Under the pieces are notes generated by a model that was not told where the DNA came from, made no database searches, and was given only the letters and a program-made list of their open reading frames with translations. From NCBI GenBank assembly GCA_029261155.1, contig JAJDBW010000041.1, positions 1 through 63,398 of the forward strand: DNA of 63,398 bases. The letters run 5' to 3'. The translations under genes were made by a program, and so were the position numbers. Position 1 is the first letter of the stretch. Each line of letters begins with the position of its first letter. Positions 4,577-44,146 of this stretch are shown here, piece by piece. The DNA comes from Nitrospirota bacterium. Its GTDB lineage: Bacteria; Nitrospirota; Nitrospiria; SBBL01; JAADHI01.

Positions 4577-4999
4577 TTAAACCGCCTTTGCTTTTGAGGT
4601 TTCGAGCGCTTCTTCTGGAAGGTTGCCAATTTCCACCCAGGCCTCTCGCAATGCGCTGAGTAATTGCTCCACTTCCTTCAAGGCCTGAGGATCACCCTTC
4701 AGGTTCGCATGCAATAATCTCCGCGTCATGTATTCGTAAAGGGCCGAAAGGCTCATCGCTATCTCACCGCCCACTTCGTGGTTTAGGCTTGCGTGCAACT
4801 CACCAACAATGGCAATCGCTTTGGTGATCGACTCCCCTTTCCCAGACACATTTTGTTGCTTGATATGCTCTTGCGCAGCCCAGATGGCCTTCAGTGCACC
4901 ATCATACAACATTTGAACCAATCGAATTGGACTGGCTGCGGCGACGTTTCCGGAGAGATCCACTTGAGCATAGGCGCGATGACTTCCCATAGATAACAT
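4577..4999 (-). CDS. fliS: Flagellin-specific chaperone FliS
   Basis: Cytoplasmic export chaperone that binds the C-terminal helix of flagellin and prevents premature polymerisation. The 140-residue protein has the FliS core LVQMLYDGALKAI near residue 28 and the YEYMTRRLLHANL segment near residue 89. Its ATG overlaps the fliD stop by one base (TAATG), so translation is coupled. A second in-frame ATG three codons in is an alternative start. It sits between fliD and a fliT-like gene. Confidence 0.93.
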   Translation of the reverse strand: MLSMGSHRAYAQVDLSGNVAAASPIRLVQMLYDGALKAIWAAQEHIKQQNVSGKGESITKAIAIVGELHASLNHEVGGEIAMSLSALYEYMTRRLLHANLKGDPQALKEVEQLLSALREAWVEIGNLPEEALETSKAKAV

Positions 5000-40991: not shown

Positions 40992-40999
40992 AAAAACCG
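40992..40999. repeat. Left copy of 8-bp target site duplication
   Basis: AAAAACCG directly outside the left terminal repeat, identical to 44139-44146. An 8-bp duplication is in the 8-9 bp range known for IS1-family elements. Confidence 0.88.
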
Positions 41000-41017
41000 G
41001 GTACTGGTAAAGTTTGA
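41000..41017 (+). repeat. Left terminal inverted repeat
   Basis: GGTACTGGTAAAGTTTGA, which matches the reverse complement of 44121-44138 at 17 of 18 positions (only position 10 differs). It begins GGT, like the ends of IS1-family elements. Confidence 0.88.
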
Positions 41018-41029
41018 AAGTGAGGGGGA

Positions 41030-41057
41030 TTGCAAAAAAGAAGTACACATGTAATAA
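41030..41057 (+). promoter_or_regulatory. Promoter candidate of the first cargo gene
   Basis: TTGCAA, 16 nt, TAATAA. The predicted start falls on or next to the ATG at 41064, and there is no Shine-Dalgarno. The transcript would be leaderless. Confidence 0.45.
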
Positions 41058-41063
41058 TCTTAC

Positions 41064-41318
41064 ATGCCTACCCGCCAAAGCAAAAAGAAAGACTTTAGCC
41101 AGATTGCCCTTGAGGTAGTCGAAGCCGCCACGAAGTCTGAGCTAAAGCCCTCCAAGGAACCCACCAAGAATCCCATCAAAGAAAAGAACCCTGCCGCCGT
41201 TGCCCTTGGCAAGCTTGGGGCAAGCAAGGGAGGCATTGCCAGAGCACAGAAGCTTTCCGCAGAGAAAAGAAAAGAAATTGCTCAGAAGGCCGCTAAAGCG
41301 CGGTGGAAAACCAAATAG
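41064..41318 (+). CDS. Small basic Lys/Ala-rich cargo protein
   Basis: 84 residues, strongly basic. An N-terminal polar part with repeated Lys and Pro is followed by a conserved-looking C-terminal unit, NPAAVALGKLGASKGGIARA and KLSAEKRKEIAQKAAKARW. This GGxARAxxLSxxxRxxIAxxAAxARW pattern is a short module common in small mobile-element and chromosomal proteins of unknown role. The charge suggests nucleic-acid binding. First gene inside the transposon. Confidence 0.7.
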   Translation: MPTRQSKKKDFSQIALEVVEAATKSELKPSKEPTKNPIKEKNPAAVALGKLGASKGGIARAQKLSAEKRKEIAQKAAKARWKTK

Positions 41319-41394
41319 CATTCCCTATTTACGTTAACGTCAATAACGTCACCCCCCCCCTCGCACCTTGGTACTATAGTCGCAATAACGCCTA

Positions 41395-41423
41395 TTGACT
41401 CCTGGTTATCGTAAGAGTACAAT
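41395..41423 (+). promoter_or_regulatory. Sigma-70 promoter of the second cargo gene
   Basis: TTGACT, 17 nt, TACAAT: five of six matches at both boxes with ideal spacing, 35 nt before the ATG at 41458. A palindrome ACGTTAACGT and a further AACGT repeat lie upstream at about 41332-41349 and may be an operator. Confidence 0.7.
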
Positions 41424-41457
41424 CTTATCTATACTCAACCATAAGAGGGAAATCGTT

Positions 41458-41961
41458 ATGTCTGACAGGCCGGAAATCGATGCTTTAATCCAAGCCGCAA
41501 AAGCAGCAGAAGTTTTAATTGAAGGTCTGCAAGCGGAGAAAAAAACGATTGAAGATAAGATTCAATCTCTCTCTGCGGTAATAAACGCTCGCGATGTTTA
41601 TTGTGGCGGGGCAATTTCAGAAAGAAGCCCGTCAACAAAAAAAGACCCTGTAAAATTAAAATCACCTAGCCTTGATATAAAAAAGCGGGTTCCAAAAGGC
41701 GAAATTGAATGGAACATCAACAAGGTTTTGAGTGGAAATCAGGGGTATGACGAACATACCTTGCGACAGCTTATCAATGAAAAATTTTCGACAAATTATC
41801 AGAGATCCGCTGTCAATACCGTGCTAAATAGATTAAAAAATATTAAATACGAAAAGGAAGGAAGTATTTGGAAAATGATTGATCCAGTCAAAGACATCTC
41901 AACTAATGTGAATGGAGACTCAAAGAATGAAGGACTAAAAAGCCCCTCAGCTAGAAGCTGA
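41458..41961 (+). CDS. Cargo protein: N-terminal coiled coil, C-terminal winged-helix-like region
   Basis: 167 residues. Residues 5-45 form a heptad-like helix (EIDALIQAAKAAEVLIEGL). A linker with many Lys, Pro and Ser follows, and from about residue 80 there is a compact domain (GYDEHTLRQLINEKFSTNYQ, then SAVNTVLNRLKNIKYEKEG) that looks like a winged helix ending in the wing GSIWKM. Possible DNA-binding regulator. AGAGGG eight nt before ATG 41458 supports this start over one 21 codons upstream. Its last codons overlap the terminator hairpin at 41941-41969. Family unknown. Confidence 0.7.
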   Translation: MSDRPEIDALIQAAKAAEVLIEGLQAEKKTIEDKIQSLSAVINARDVYCGGAISERSPSTKKDPVKLKSPSLDIKKRVPKGEIEWNINKVLSGNQGYDEHTLRQLINEKFSTNYQRSAVNTVLNRLKNIKYEKEGSIWKMIDPVKDISTNVNGDSKNEGLKSPSARS

Positions 41962-41969
41962 GGGGCTTT
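41941..41969 (+). terminator. Intrinsic terminator-like hairpin overlapping a stop codon
   Basis: A perfect 11-bp stem (AGCCCCTCAGC / GCTGAGGGGCT) with a 5-nt loop and then TTTC. The left arm and loop encode the last residues of the preceding gene. The T-run is short, so readthrough into the tRNA-like genes that begin 19 nt later is possible, and no separate promoter fits in that gap. Confidence 0.65.
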
Positions 41970-41987
41970 CAATATCTAGGCTTTTTG

Positions 41988-42093
41988 GAGCCGGTGACCG
42001 AGCGGTTAAGGACCAGGGTCAGCAACCCTTGGACAATCATGTAAGCTTTGACGGGCAACCATGATTGCGCGGGTTCAAATCCCGCCCGGCTCT
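41988..42093 (+). tRNA. Atypical class-II tRNA-like gene 1, Ser-type body, 38-nt variable region
   Basis: A 7-bp acceptor stem (GAGCCGG / CCGGCTC), T8, a Ser-like D arm with GCGG loop, and a perfect T arm (GCGGG-TTCAAAT-CCCGC) make a cloverleaf. Odd points: the D stem has an A-A mismatch, and the anticodon stem (CAGGG / CCCTT) ends in C-T. The 7-nt anticodon loop TCAGCAA has C where U33 is nearly universal, reading AGC at 34-36. The variable region is 38 nt with a perfect 8-bp stem (CAATCATG / CATGATTG) and an 18-nt loop. The discriminator is T followed by CCC, so no encoded CCA. One more pair (G41987-T42093) would give an 8-bp acceptor. It may be degenerate, a decoy, or a novel tRNA. Confidence 0.65.
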
Positions 42094-42106
42094 CCCTTGC
42101 TTGAAC

Positions 42107-42193
42107 GTGGGTGTGGTGAAACTGGTAAACACAGCGATCTAGAAAATCGCCGCCTGGGGTCAGGCTTTGCGGGTTCGAGTCCCGCCACCCACA
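42107..42193 (+). tRNA. Atypical class-II tRNA-like gene 2, Leu-type body, anticodon AGA
   Basis: A well-formed 87-nt cloverleaf: 7-bp acceptor (GTGGGTG / CACCCAC), T8, Leu-style D arm (GTG-11 nt-CAC with GG in the loop), 5-bp anticodon stem (GCGAT / ATCGC), variable arm GCCTG-GGGT-CAGGC, T arm GCGGG-TTCGAGT-CCCGC, discriminator A73, no encoded CCA. The loop CTAGAAA has a normal U33 and gives anticodon AGA, which would read the Ser codon UCU. But the D arm and A73 are leucine-type, and Ser tRNAs normally have G73. A34 in a Ser box is itself rare in bacteria. It follows the first gene by 13 nt. Confidence 0.75.
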
Positions 42194-42196
42194 TTC

Positions 42197-42231
42197 ATGC
42201 AACGCTATGATAATGCCATCGTTGCGTTTTC
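42197..42231 (+). terminator. Hairpin after the tRNA-like pair
   Basis: An 8-bp stem (ATGCAACG with CGTTGCGT, one G-U), 15-nt loop, then TTTC. It starts four nt after the second tRNA-like gene and could end the transcript or guide 3' processing. Confidence 0.45.
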
Positions 42232-42310
42232 ATCCTACCATAGCGTTTCATGATAATCAAGTATAGCTTTAAGCTTTTATTAAGGCATTTTAAATTATGT
42301 GTAATTTTAC

Positions 42311-42339
42311 TTGACTATGCTTGCCCGCGCAAGTATAAT
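42311..42339 (+). promoter_or_regulatory. Consensus promoter of the transposase gene
   Basis: TTGACT, exactly 17 nt, TATAAT. This is nearly perfect for sigma-70. Seven nt after the -10 lies the ATG at 42346, so the mRNA is expected to begin at or within two nt of the start codon. There is no Shine-Dalgarno. Confidence 0.8.
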
Positions 42340-42345
42340 ATGATT

Positions 42346-43176
42346 ATGAATAAGCTAAACACAAAACAACGCGCACAAATTATTTCGATACTCGTAGAAG
42401 GTGTTGGCATTAATAGCACGGCCCGGATTACAGGAGTTTCTAAGCCAACTATACTTAAACTCTTGGCCGATTTAGGAAAAGCCTGTGCGAAATATCAGGA
42501 TGAGCATCTAATAAACTTGCCTTGCAGGCGTATTCAGGCTGATGAGGTCTGGTCATTCTGTTATGCAAAAGATAAGAACCTGCCAGAAGCATTACAAGGA
42601 AAATTCGGCTTTGGTTCTGTGTGGACGTGGACGGCACTTTGTTCAGATACGAAATTAATAGCTTCTTGGTTTGTCGGTAGCCGCGATGCTGAATGTGGTT
42701 CTAAATTCATGAATGATCTTGCGGGCAGGTTATCCAATAGGGTTCAATTGACCACTGATGGCTATTCAGTGTACCTAGAGGCCGTTGAGGGTGCCTTCGG
42801 TGCAGACATTGATTACTCGATGTTAATCAAGCTTTACAACAACCCGCCGACAGGAAATGAAACCCGATATAGTCCTAGTGAATGTTGTGGCATAAAAAAG
42901 AAAAAAGTTACCGGCAATCCTGATCTAAAACACGTTTCGACGAGTTATACGGAACGGCAAAATTTGACCATGAGAATGAGCATGAGACGGTTTACTCGAC
43001 TAACAAACGCCCATTCAAAGAAGATCGAAAACCACATCCATGCGATTGCGCTTTATTTTATGTACTATAATTTCGCTCGGATTCATTCAAGTCTAAGGGT
43101 TACACCGGCAATGGAAGCGGGTATATCAGACCATGTATGGGATTTGGAGGAAATAATTAACCTATTGAATAAATAG
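42346..43176 (+). CDS. IS1-family DDE transposase
   Basis: 276 residues from the ATG at 42346. An N-terminal helix-turn-helix (RAQIISILVEGVGINSTARI then GVSKPTILKLLADLG) is followed by the InsB-type catalytic core: first Asp in QADEVWSFCYAKDK near residue 66, second in LTTDGYSVYLEAVEG near 140, Glu in TSYTERQNLTMRMSMRRFTR near 206. The ending SSLRVTPAMEAGISDHVWDL is seen in longer single-frame IS1 relatives. No programmed frameshift is needed, unlike classical IS1. It catalyses movement of the 41000-44138 unit. The leaderless promoter and lack of Shine-Dalgarno would keep levels low. Confidence 0.92.
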   Translation: MNKLNTKQRAQIISILVEGVGINSTARITGVSKPTILKLLADLGKACAKYQDEHLINLPCRRIQADEVWSFCYAKDKNLPEALQGKFGFGSVWTWTALCSDTKLIASWFVGSRDAECGSKFMNDLAGRLSNRVQLTTDGYSVYLEAVEGAFGADIDYSMLIKLYNNPPTGNETRYSPSECCGIKKKKVTGNPDLKHVSTSYTERQNLTMRMSMRRFTRLTNAHSKKIENHIHAIALYFMYYNFARIHSSLRVTPAMEAGISDHVWDLEEIINLLNK

Positions 43177-43234
43177 ATCTGATATATTAGTATCATGACG
43201 TACTCTCCCACCCTTTAATAAGGGGGCTTAAATC

Positions 43235-43687
43235 ATGAAAACCCCATATACTGCTTCCGATATTGCTAACTACTTTCTATTTAAGGGCCAATCGGACCAA
43301 GAACTAATTTCTAACCTCAAACTTCAAAAACTAATATACTACGCCCAAGGTCTGCATTTAGCCTGTAAAGGCACTCCGCTATTCAAAGAGAAAATAAAGG
43401 CTTGGACATATGGTCCGGTTGTTCCTGAGCTTTATGCCGCGTATAAGGAGTTTGGAGCAAATGGAATTCCAGCAAATGAATTATTTAATCCAGAAGTCAT
43501 CGACGAAGAAACAAGAGAATTTCTTGATGAGATATATTCAGTGTTTGGGCAGTTTTCTGCTATTCGGCTTATGGAATTGACCCATGAGGACAAATGCTGG
43601 AAGATTGCACATCCAAACAAAATCATTACCCATAAATCTATGCAGAAGTCATTAAAAAAATACCTAAATAATGCCGAAAAGAAATAA
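43235..43687 (+). CDS. Panacea-domain (SocA/DUF4065-like) antitoxin
   Basis: 150 residues. The family core is visible as ASDIANYFLFKGQ, ISNLKLQKLIYYAQGLHLA and AWTYGPVVPELYAAYKEFG near residues 5-75, with a C-terminal DKCWKIAHPNK. Panacea-domain proteins neutralise many unrelated small toxins encoded next to them. AGGGGG ten nt before the ATG supports the start. The next gene's ATG lies inside its 3' end (43671), so the two are translated together. Likely stabilises the transposon or defends the host. Confidence 0.88.
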   Translation: MKTPYTASDIANYFLFKGQSDQELISNLKLQKLIYYAQGLHLACKGTPLFKEKIKAWTYGPVVPELYAAYKEFGANGIPANELFNPEVIDEETREFLDEIYSVFGQFSAIRLMELTHEDKCWKIAHPNKIITHKSMQKSLKKYLNNAEKK

Positions 43688-44095
43688 TAAAAAGCTTAAA
43701 AGAGTTCAAGCTAAAGATAGTCCACGTTTTTCTGTCAAAGAGAAACAAAAAACAAATTACAACACCCATAAGCCTATTTTTCATTCCATTATATGAAATA
43801 TCGTGGTGCTAAATGTCTTTCGCATTGCGATTCTTCTTCCAAGGCGCATTTTTCAGAGAAGCTTCTAGAGATAAGTCAGTTAACTTGGGCTCAAATAACA
43901 TTGGCCCCAAGAGAGGGCATGGGAAGTGAGCTCATCCCATTAGGACAGTTTAAAATATCATTACCACCAATTTGCACACCAGAAGTTTCCCTCCAAGTTT
44001 TTCGCTTTTCATCAAAGGGTAGAATCGCTGGCATCAGAAAAGGTGATGTCTATCATATCGTCGTGGTTAGCCAGTCTCACGATTTATACTCCTAA
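43671..44095 (+). pseudogene. Panacea-partner toxin, broken by a one-base frameshift
   Basis: The frame that opens at ATG 43671 runs 41 codons (Lys/Asn/Arg rich) and stops at 43796. The natural continuation lies in the -1 frame from about 43781: SFHYMKYRGAKCLSHCD, then KLLEISQLTWAQITLAPREG, and near the end GIRKGDVYHIVV and HDLYS. Joined at the five-T run 43777-43781 the protein would be about 141 residues and match the layout I associate with Panacea-linked toxins. Either one T was lost (T6 to T5), or a -1 slip at ATTTTTC is programmed, or this is a read error. The second part alone could start at ATG 43793. Confidence 0.65.
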
Positions 44096-44120
44096 TTTCA
44101 AAATCTATTTTAAATCGAGA

Positions 44121-44138
44121 TCAAACTTGACCAGTACC
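44121..44138 (-). repeat. Right terminal inverted repeat
   Basis: TCAAACTTGACCAGTACC, the inverted partner of 41000-41017 with one mismatch. It ends ACC, as expected for the right end of an IS1-family element, and lies 25 nt after the toxin stop. Confidence 0.88.
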
Positions 44139-44146
44139 AAAAACCG
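44139..44146. repeat. Right copy of 8-bp target site duplication
   Basis: AAAAACCG directly outside the right terminal repeat, identical to 40992-40999. From here to 44357 I see no gene. Confidence 0.88.

Follow-up and report, generated by a model that had tools for sequence, protein, structure and literature searches.

Transposons related to IS1 recurrently carry tRNA genes with conflicting bodies and anticodons, probably as mobile suppressor tRNAs

Why would a transposon carry two transfer RNA (tRNA) genes whose bodies belong to one amino acid and whose anticodons belong to another? The question is raised by a contig of a Nitrospirota bacterium (JAJDBW010000041.1, assembly GCA_029261155.1), which was analysed from position 1 to 63,398 on the forward strand; this whole stretch of 63,398 nucleotides (nt) is referred to as the window. 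Two tandem tRNA-like genes, here gene 1 and gene 2 (Table 1), lie in an intact IS1-like transposon of 3,139 base pairs (bp), positions 41000-44138. Its inverted ends (18 bp) and the identical octamers that flank them, a perfect target duplication, were located, so that the genes are indeed inside a transposon, as an initial annotation of this DNA had claimed. Judging from sequence comparisons, the pair is probably a cargo of mobile missense or nonsense suppressor tRNAs.

Both genes score above the gathering score of 29 of the Rfam covariance model RF00005 (34.9 bits for gene 1, 55.9 bits for gene 2). The initial annotation, which had described them as class II tRNA-like genes, was thus right, and its gene ends were exact. 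In this region ARAGORN calls gene 2 alone, as Ser(AGA), and misses gene 1. Of 200 dinucleotide shuffles, the folding of gene 1 beats 199 (z -3.4) and that of gene 2 beats 198 (z -2.7). All the oddities ascribed to gene 1 can be read in the sequence: C33 and the triplet AGC in the anticodon loop UCAGCAA, the mismatches C27.U43 in the anticodon stem and A10.A25 in the D stem, and a variable region of 38 nt with a perfect 8-bp stem (CAATCATG at 42034-42041, CATGATTG at 42060-42067). The same is true of the features given for gene 2, i.e., full stems, a leucine-type D arm, A73 and the anticodon AGA in the loop CUAGAAA. An encoded CCA is absent from both, as had been noted; the discriminator U73 of gene 1 is followed by CCC, and gene 2 by TTC.

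The bodies were assigned to the nearest host tRNA, a procedure that was correct in 14 of 14 leave-one-out cases for Leu, Ser and Arg. The closest body is Ser for gene 1 and Leu for gene 2. Compared with an ordinary tRNA-Leu, gene 2 fits in body and A73 but not in its anticodon, and compared with an ordinary tRNA-Ser, gene 1 fits in its closest body but not in AGC, C33 and U73. The D arm of gene 2 resembles throughout that of a Leu-body tRNA of the UAA-suppressor type in a related transposon (L149; related loci are given as L numbers), which suggests that the anticodon of gene 2 was switched from UUA to AGA. Besides these two, 43 tRNA genes, most with an encoded CCA, were counted in the host genome (90 contigs, 3.56 Mb), and both its Leu set (UAA, UAG, CAA, CAG, GAG) and its Ser set (UGA, GCU, GGA, CGA) are complete; therefore, ordinary decoding requires neither gene 1 nor gene 2. 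When plasmids, phages and about 390 genomes from the same phylum were searched for near DNA homologues of the two genes, the hits were just D-arm and T-arm matches to ordinary tRNAs, and an exact-pattern search of viral contigs returned none.

Relatives of the element were collected with its transposase. The first scans gave 507 relatives in genome contigs, of which 80 were kept, and 54 in viral contigs, i.e., 134 loci; extra viral-contig scans and genome searches brought the set to 250 distinct transposase loci. In most of the initial 134 loci inverted ends, typically GGTAGTGGGTCAGTTTGA, can be recognised, together with perfect 8-bp duplications and 1.3-5.3 kb between them, and 95 elements were treated as bounded. 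Plasmid-borne relatives are annotated as IS1 family transposase, and one relative, L068, comes from a Nitrospira metagenome-assembled genome, of the same class as the host. The passengers differ even where the transposases are nearly identical (L383 and L384); they include toxin-antitoxin genes (RES/Xre), and the cargo of L381 resembles a toxin-antitoxin pair too.

In about 10% of the 250 loci a tRNA-like gene lies directly upstream of the transposase and on its strand. ARAGORN alone finds 24 such genes, 84-670 bp from the transposase, against 4 upstream on the opposite strand (1 within about 670 bp) and 3 and 5 downstream. One of the 24, in L413, adjoins a distant transposase and was not counted as carried; L419 (Val) and L423 (Arg-CCU beside an inverted end) lie outside the element and were not counted either. 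Covariance models built for the family, of which ARAGORN is independent, add L077, L094 and a second weak tRNA in L076. For fourteen carriers both inverted ends and a perfect target duplication could be located around the tRNAs; the minimal element among them, L157, holds within 1,323 bp a truncated ARW open reading frame (ORF; see below), a hairpin, the tRNA and the transposase. As in the window, a hairpin precedes the tRNA in most of the tRNA-carrying relatives. Related transposons with discordant tRNAs occur in several bacterial phyla.

In the class II cases all 18 anticodons are foreign to the body and none is cognate. The closest body is Ser or Leu in 17 of these 18 genes; L416 is closest to Tyr, and L076 is a near-tie between Ser and Leu. 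Leu bodies are found with UUA, reading the UAA stop (L145, L149, L157 and, on the other strand, L429), with GUA (Tyr) in L100 and with AGA (Ser) in gene 2 of the window. Ser bodies are found with UAA (Leu; L079, L111), UAU (Ile; L193, L422), GUA (Tyr; L420, L436), UCG (Arg; L116), CGC (Ala; L089), AGC (Ala; gene 1 of the window), GGU (Thr; L383) and UAG (Leu; L076). Class I bodies of an Arg-like type have only two anticodons, ACU (n=5; L092, L118, L128, L358, L299) and GCU (n=3; L075, L098, L145), which both read Ser AGY, and AGU (Thr) is combined in L176 with a Glu-like body, which has the D arm TCGTCTAG. In an unrelated phage tRNA array used as control, the same procedure assigned the Leu and Ser tRNAs correctly, with body and anticodon in agreement. 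It is nearly certain that folded tRNAs with discordant body and anticodon are a recurrent cargo of this transposon family.

Sequence changes among the copies follow the cloverleaf. Across the 27 parsed genes, which include L416 and L429 on the opposite strand, 186 of 189 acceptor positions (98%), 124 of 135 anticodon-stem positions (92%) and all 135 T-stem positions (100%) are paired; if each strand is combined with the partner strand of another gene, the values are 54%, 52% and 73%. In two model-fitted alignments, the second of which contains a few stray tRNAs, 18 of 20 and 19 of 20 pairs have changed on both sides, and none of 500 shuffles reached as high. Seven pairs of copies with the same anticodon show 26 double compensatory changes and 1 break; the anticodon is constant, with stem pairs altered on both sides, in L420/L436, L079/L111, L193/L422, L118/L128, L092/L128 and L145b/L149. 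L089 and L383 share the acceptor, T arm, U73 and CCA, but differ in the anticodon arm, the anticodon (CGC and GGU) and the variable stem, which are still largely paired. Random stem mutations in homologues, which according to the initial annotation would point to pseudogenes, were not seen; compensatory changes were found in their place, and the recoding idea survives.

The tRNAs do not follow the phylogeny of the transposase. On a FastTree tree of 245 transposases with many weak branches, where L416 and L429 were left off the carrier list, the trait changes 23 times for 25 carriers, at least 17 of these changes being forced by supported branches, and the carriers are clustered no more than shuffled labels. 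The tRNAs are therefore exchangeable cargo, acquired or swapped many times, and not ancestral to one lineage.

Bacterial leucyl- and seryl-tRNA synthetases (LeuRS, SerRS) ignore the anticodon, and arginyl-tRNA synthetase (ArgRS) depends on C35 and A20. The carried tRNAs thus have bodies that can still be charged after an anticodon swap, since the Arg-like bodies keep C35. We suggest the following sequence of events. The winged-helix gene upstream of the tRNAs and the tRNAs themselves are probably co-transcribed from the promoter at 41395; the precursor would be trimmed by ribonuclease (RNase) P and 3' enzymes, and CCA would be added by the CCA-adding enzyme. Class II bodies would be charged by LeuRS or SerRS and Arg-like bodies, with C35 kept, by ArgRS, and the ribosome would then place the amino acid of the body at the codon that matches the foreign anticodon. 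Gene 2 would insert Leu at Ser UCU codons. Gene 1, the weaker candidate, would insert Ser at Ala GCU codons, and less efficiently because of its C33, U73 and stem mismatches.

The conflict between body and anticodon, taken by itself, makes it fairly likely that the carried tRNAs mistranslate, and deliberate mistranslation is the simplest reading of such discordant tRNAs. Recoding, one of the roles offered in the initial annotation, is well supported by the presence of this conflict in about 25 transposon copies, by the conserved folds and by the compensatory changes. UCU makes up 14% of the Ser codons and GCU 10% of the Ala codons in the host genes of the window, so that full decoding of these codons would be harmful; expression should thus be low or regulated, or decoding inefficient. 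Low-level mistranslation could then act as a costly or protective cargo, much as toxin-antitoxin genes do, which occupy this slot in sister elements; a cargo of the cost or protection type is our best guess for what the element gains. Regulation of the mistranslating cargo by the winged-helix protein may complete the scheme and is its least certain step. More tentatively, it can be speculated that widespread transposons spread codon-hijacking cassettes, each a hairpin-led suppressor tRNA often with a winged-helix regulator, which redefine a chosen host codon as a weapon of addiction or against invaders and whose anticodon and variable arms evolve fast, as between L089 and L383.

Several observations weigh against suppression by these tRNAs. 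Covariation among distant copies in part reflects descent from ordinary tRNAs, which is why the pairs of close copies carry more weight. Body identity is less reliable for class I, where 'Arg-like' derives mainly from the D arm GTAGCTCAG.TGGATAGAGC and C35. U73 occurs in 9 of the 27 parsed tRNAs and C33 in 4; gene 1 has both, and both are unfavourable in a Ser tRNA. Anticodons with A34 are rare in bacteria. The winged-helix partner is missing from several tRNA carriers, and some winged-helix elements have no tRNA. Finally, the carriers whose record titles were viewed are metagenome-assembled genomes or viral contigs, not isolates.

The cloverleaf could matter as such, with the anticodon irrelevant, if it were an RNase P/RNase Z target that cuts read-through into the transposase, or part of a structured leader. 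The short same-strand distance to the transposase, the strong hairpin ahead of the tRNAs and the promoter that the transposase has of its own would suit such a processing insulator or regulator, which we nevertheless consider unlikely: the anticodons are non-random (ACU in five diverged Arg-like bodies, UUA in four Leu bodies, UAU in two Ser bodies), U33 and A37 are mostly retained, and no reason is offered for the avoidance of cognate anticodons. A role as regulatory RNAs, which the initial annotation had also offered, is conceivable.

A strict toxic-RNA addiction module, with the mistranslating tRNA as toxin and the winged-helix protein or a short leader peptide as antitoxin, is distinctly unlikely. 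The winged-helix gene and the tRNA do form one unit in the window and in several relatives, and the cargo slot is otherwise often filled by toxin-antitoxin genes. However, the winged-helix gene was not found in L092, L118, L149 and L157, and in some elements it stands without a detectable tRNA.

The initial annotation had favoured decoys; the tRNAs would then divert an anticodon nuclease or a toxin that modifies tRNAs, perhaps one borne by the element. A decoy should mimic a host tRNA in both anticodon arm and body, but the carried tRNAs are chimeras; their bodies and anticodons vary too widely between copies for a single nuclease or modifying enzyme, and no nuclease gene or other such toxin is consistently beside them across copies. 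Even with the RES/Xre cargo of sister elements and the SocA/Panacea antitoxin homologue of the window in its favour, the decoy idea is very unlikely and not supported.

That the genes are pseudogenes or chance captures of chromosomal tRNAs is highly improbable. The anticodon stems of gene 1, L098 and L299 are weakened (L299, which adjoins a truncated transposase end, is possibly a decayed copy), and CCA is unencoded in both window genes. The stems that are 92-100% paired, the compensatory changes, the anticodons that are usually kept and the scatter of the trait on the transposase tree nevertheless show that the carried tRNAs are not pseudogenes; further, they were acquired repeatedly at one position and strand, cognate anticodons are absent, and the ordinary class II tRNAs of the unrelated array match in body and anticodon by the same method. 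A self-decoding lock, in which the transposase or a cargo gene needs the foreign tRNA for its correct translation, would account for the linkage to the transposase and is hardly credible: in the transposases of UAA-suppressor carriers there is no in-frame UAA, transposases show no clear avoidance or enrichment of decoded codons (121 observed, 100 expected), and self-decoding of the transposase was rejected as these codons are mostly at positions with the family's normal amino acid or at variable ones.

How do the proposed suppressor tRNAs compare with known systems? Allo-tRNAs (Mukai et al. 2017, reviewed in PMC7609411) are class II tRNAs, mostly of Ser identity, with foreign anticodons that read sense codons and ochre, and one pseudogene of this type, an allo-tRNA(UAU), is described there as overlapping the ORF of a transposon. 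The logic is the same as in the carried class II tRNAs. However, an 8/4 or 9/3 arrangement of acceptor and T stem defines the allo-tRNAs, and the carried copies fit 7/5, a division that is assumed by the parser and backed by the near-complete pairing of both stems. Further, the carried tRNAs include Leu and Arg-like bodies and have a transposon as their defined location. tRNA-ProX of Streptomyces and Kitasatospora combines one body with the foreign anticodons AGC, AUU and AGU, with A34 and with A33 (PMC11415595); its body is Pro and it is not presented there as transposon cargo, whereas the bodies in the window are Leu and Ser. Both kinds have a dual identity and A34, and in both position 33 can be altered (to A33 in tRNA-ProX, to C33 in four of the genes here). 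In its original description tRNA-ProX is reportedly linked to a copy of prolyl-tRNA synthetase, and among the ORFs of the window element there is no synthetase gene.

Tn3-family transposons carry toxin-antitoxin passengers, i.e., potentially harmful or protective cargo beside transposition genes as here, but those described in PMC7157771 are protein toxins and antitoxins and not tRNAs. With the IS1 family the element shares a related transposase, inverted ends and a duplication of 8 bp, within the 8-9 bp of that family; it differs in a transposase below the IS1 model cut-offs (NF033558, transpos_IS1, 64.4 bits for a cut-off of 100; PF03400, 23.8 bits for 24.1) and in the size of the elements, 1.3-5.3 kb with varied passenger genes. 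A literature search, mostly outside subscription journals, found no earlier account of recurrent suppressor tRNA cargo in a family of transposons, nor of tRNA-carrying insertion sequences. Natural mistranslating tRNAs such as allo-tRNAs and tRNA-ProX have so far been scattered curiosities; as recurrent, exchangeable cargo of one transposon family, they would have a home and a means of horizontal spread. This raises the testable question whether mobile elements use code changes against hosts or competitors. The carried tRNAs are also natural candidates for suppression at UAA, AGY, Tyr, Ile and other codons.

The protein encoded ahead of the tRNAs, of 167 amino acids (aa), has in its AlphaFold model a helix at 4-48 (predicted local distance difference test, pLDDT, about 97) and a winged helix at 82-140 (about 75-89). 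No convincing family was found for it in Pfam, NCBIfam, PADLOC or PHROGs, and a search with its fold returned general winged helices only, none at E <= 0.001. Proteins of this type adjoin the tRNA in about 12 of the 19 tRNA-carrying loci inspected, an association biased upward because the protein profiles were seeded from carriers. On the basis of the model, the protein is a candidate regulator of the tRNA cargo.

Table 1. Features of the window transposon and its tRNA-like genes
Feature	Position	Strand	Basis or remark
Left target-site duplication AAAAACCG	40992..40999	.	Identical to 44139-44146
Left terminal inverted repeat GGTACTGGTAAAGTTTGA	41000..41017	+	17/18 complementary to 44121-44138; relatives with same ends
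'ARW' basic small ORF, 84 aa	41064..41318	+	ORF list; homologous ORFs in relatives
Sigma-70-like promoter TTGACT-17-TACAAT, winged-helix/tRNA unit	41395..41423	+	Consensus 10/12
Coiled-coil and winged-helix protein gene, 167 aa	41458..41961	+	AlphaFold model
14-bp perfect hairpin directly 5' of tRNAs	41939..41969	+	Folding z -6.45; contains stop codon of winged-helix ORF
tRNA-like gene 1	41988..42093	+	Ser-type class II body, anticodon AGC (Ala GCU), C33, U73, no CCA
Gene 1 anticodon AGC, C33 ahead	42021..42023	+	Cloverleaf parse
tRNA-like gene 2	42107..42193	+	Leu-type class II body, A73, anticodon AGA (Ser UCU), no CCA
Gene 2 anticodon AGA	42141..42143	+	ARAGORN and cloverleaf parse
Inverted repeat 3' of gene 2, possible 3' end of tRNA transcript	42195..42253	+	18-nt arms, 89% complementary
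Transposase promoter TTGACT-17-TATAAT with palindrome CTTGC...GCAAG	42311..42339	+	Consensus 11/12
IS1-like transposase, 276 aa	42346..43176	+	NCBIfam transpos_IS1, PF03400
SocA/Panacea antitoxin-like protein	43235..43687	+	PF13274, 79.4 bits
100-aa ORF, possible toxin partner (candidate)	43793..44095	+	phrog_8366, unknown function, E 9e-21
Right terminal inverted repeat	44121..44138	-	Pairs with left end
Right target-site duplication AAAAACCG	44139..44146	.	Identical to left copy

The transposase is present in one copy in the host genome. In the region around the 41395 promoter as a whole, promoter-like sites of this kind are not in excess, and the inverted repeat downstream of gene 2 has no T run, its role as terminator being that of a candidate. 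The transposon had also been said to carry a toxin gene; the gene that can be named is the antitoxin homologue, and the 100-aa ORF after it is a possible toxin.

Nearly all elements inspected, among them the window element, L075, L076, L100, L116, L128, L145 and L157, encode at their left end a small basic protein with the C-terminal pattern KGGKARAEKLSxxxRxEIAKKAAxARW; this ARW protein belongs to the transposon family. The transposase promoter has a palindrome of the type TGCTTGAnCGnTCAAGCA between its -35 and -10 boxes (42320-42333 in the window); a palindrome of this type is found at the same place in most relatives (L383, L089, L145) and is swapped for other palindromes in L094 and L119. 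It is likely an operator that changes along with the cargo regulator.

In several relatives (L089 about 4640-4720, L383 about 1120-1220, L375, L422, L149, L103) a short ORF stops at or within the hairpin ahead of the tRNA; its AGGAGG-like site is strong. Examples of such ORFs are MRRSIAHAITLTDAMGNNSKSRLSAF, MRRIVAPASTLTDVWGDNSKSRLFTP and MKRRVSAPMLMLTGMRGEKRRGHPFRL, and they could possibly encode a leader peptide or act as an attenuator. Between L089 and L383, the hairpin has an identical stem and an inverted loop.

Irregular tRNA-like sequences were also seen. L345:3841-3939 is an Arg-like tRNA of 99 nt that has about 25 additional bases in its anticodon arm; it is followed by a T run and located just 5' of the transposase. 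L076:4791-4858, L094:4656-4728 and L413:821-894 are weak, shortened or unusual sequences, too irregular for a body to be assigned. Four elements in which no tRNA was detected (L091, L133, L125, L080) have other strongly structured stretches between the winged-helix gene and the transposase; those of L091 and L133 resemble each other, and all may be further RNA cargo. L098:4779-4891 and L080 at about 4790-4900 share an ORF of 38-40 aa (..YITTRSGRRIYAWQYGKKCFAIRVKN and ..FITTRTGKRLYAAQFGKRCWAIQVKA) between the cargo and the transposase.
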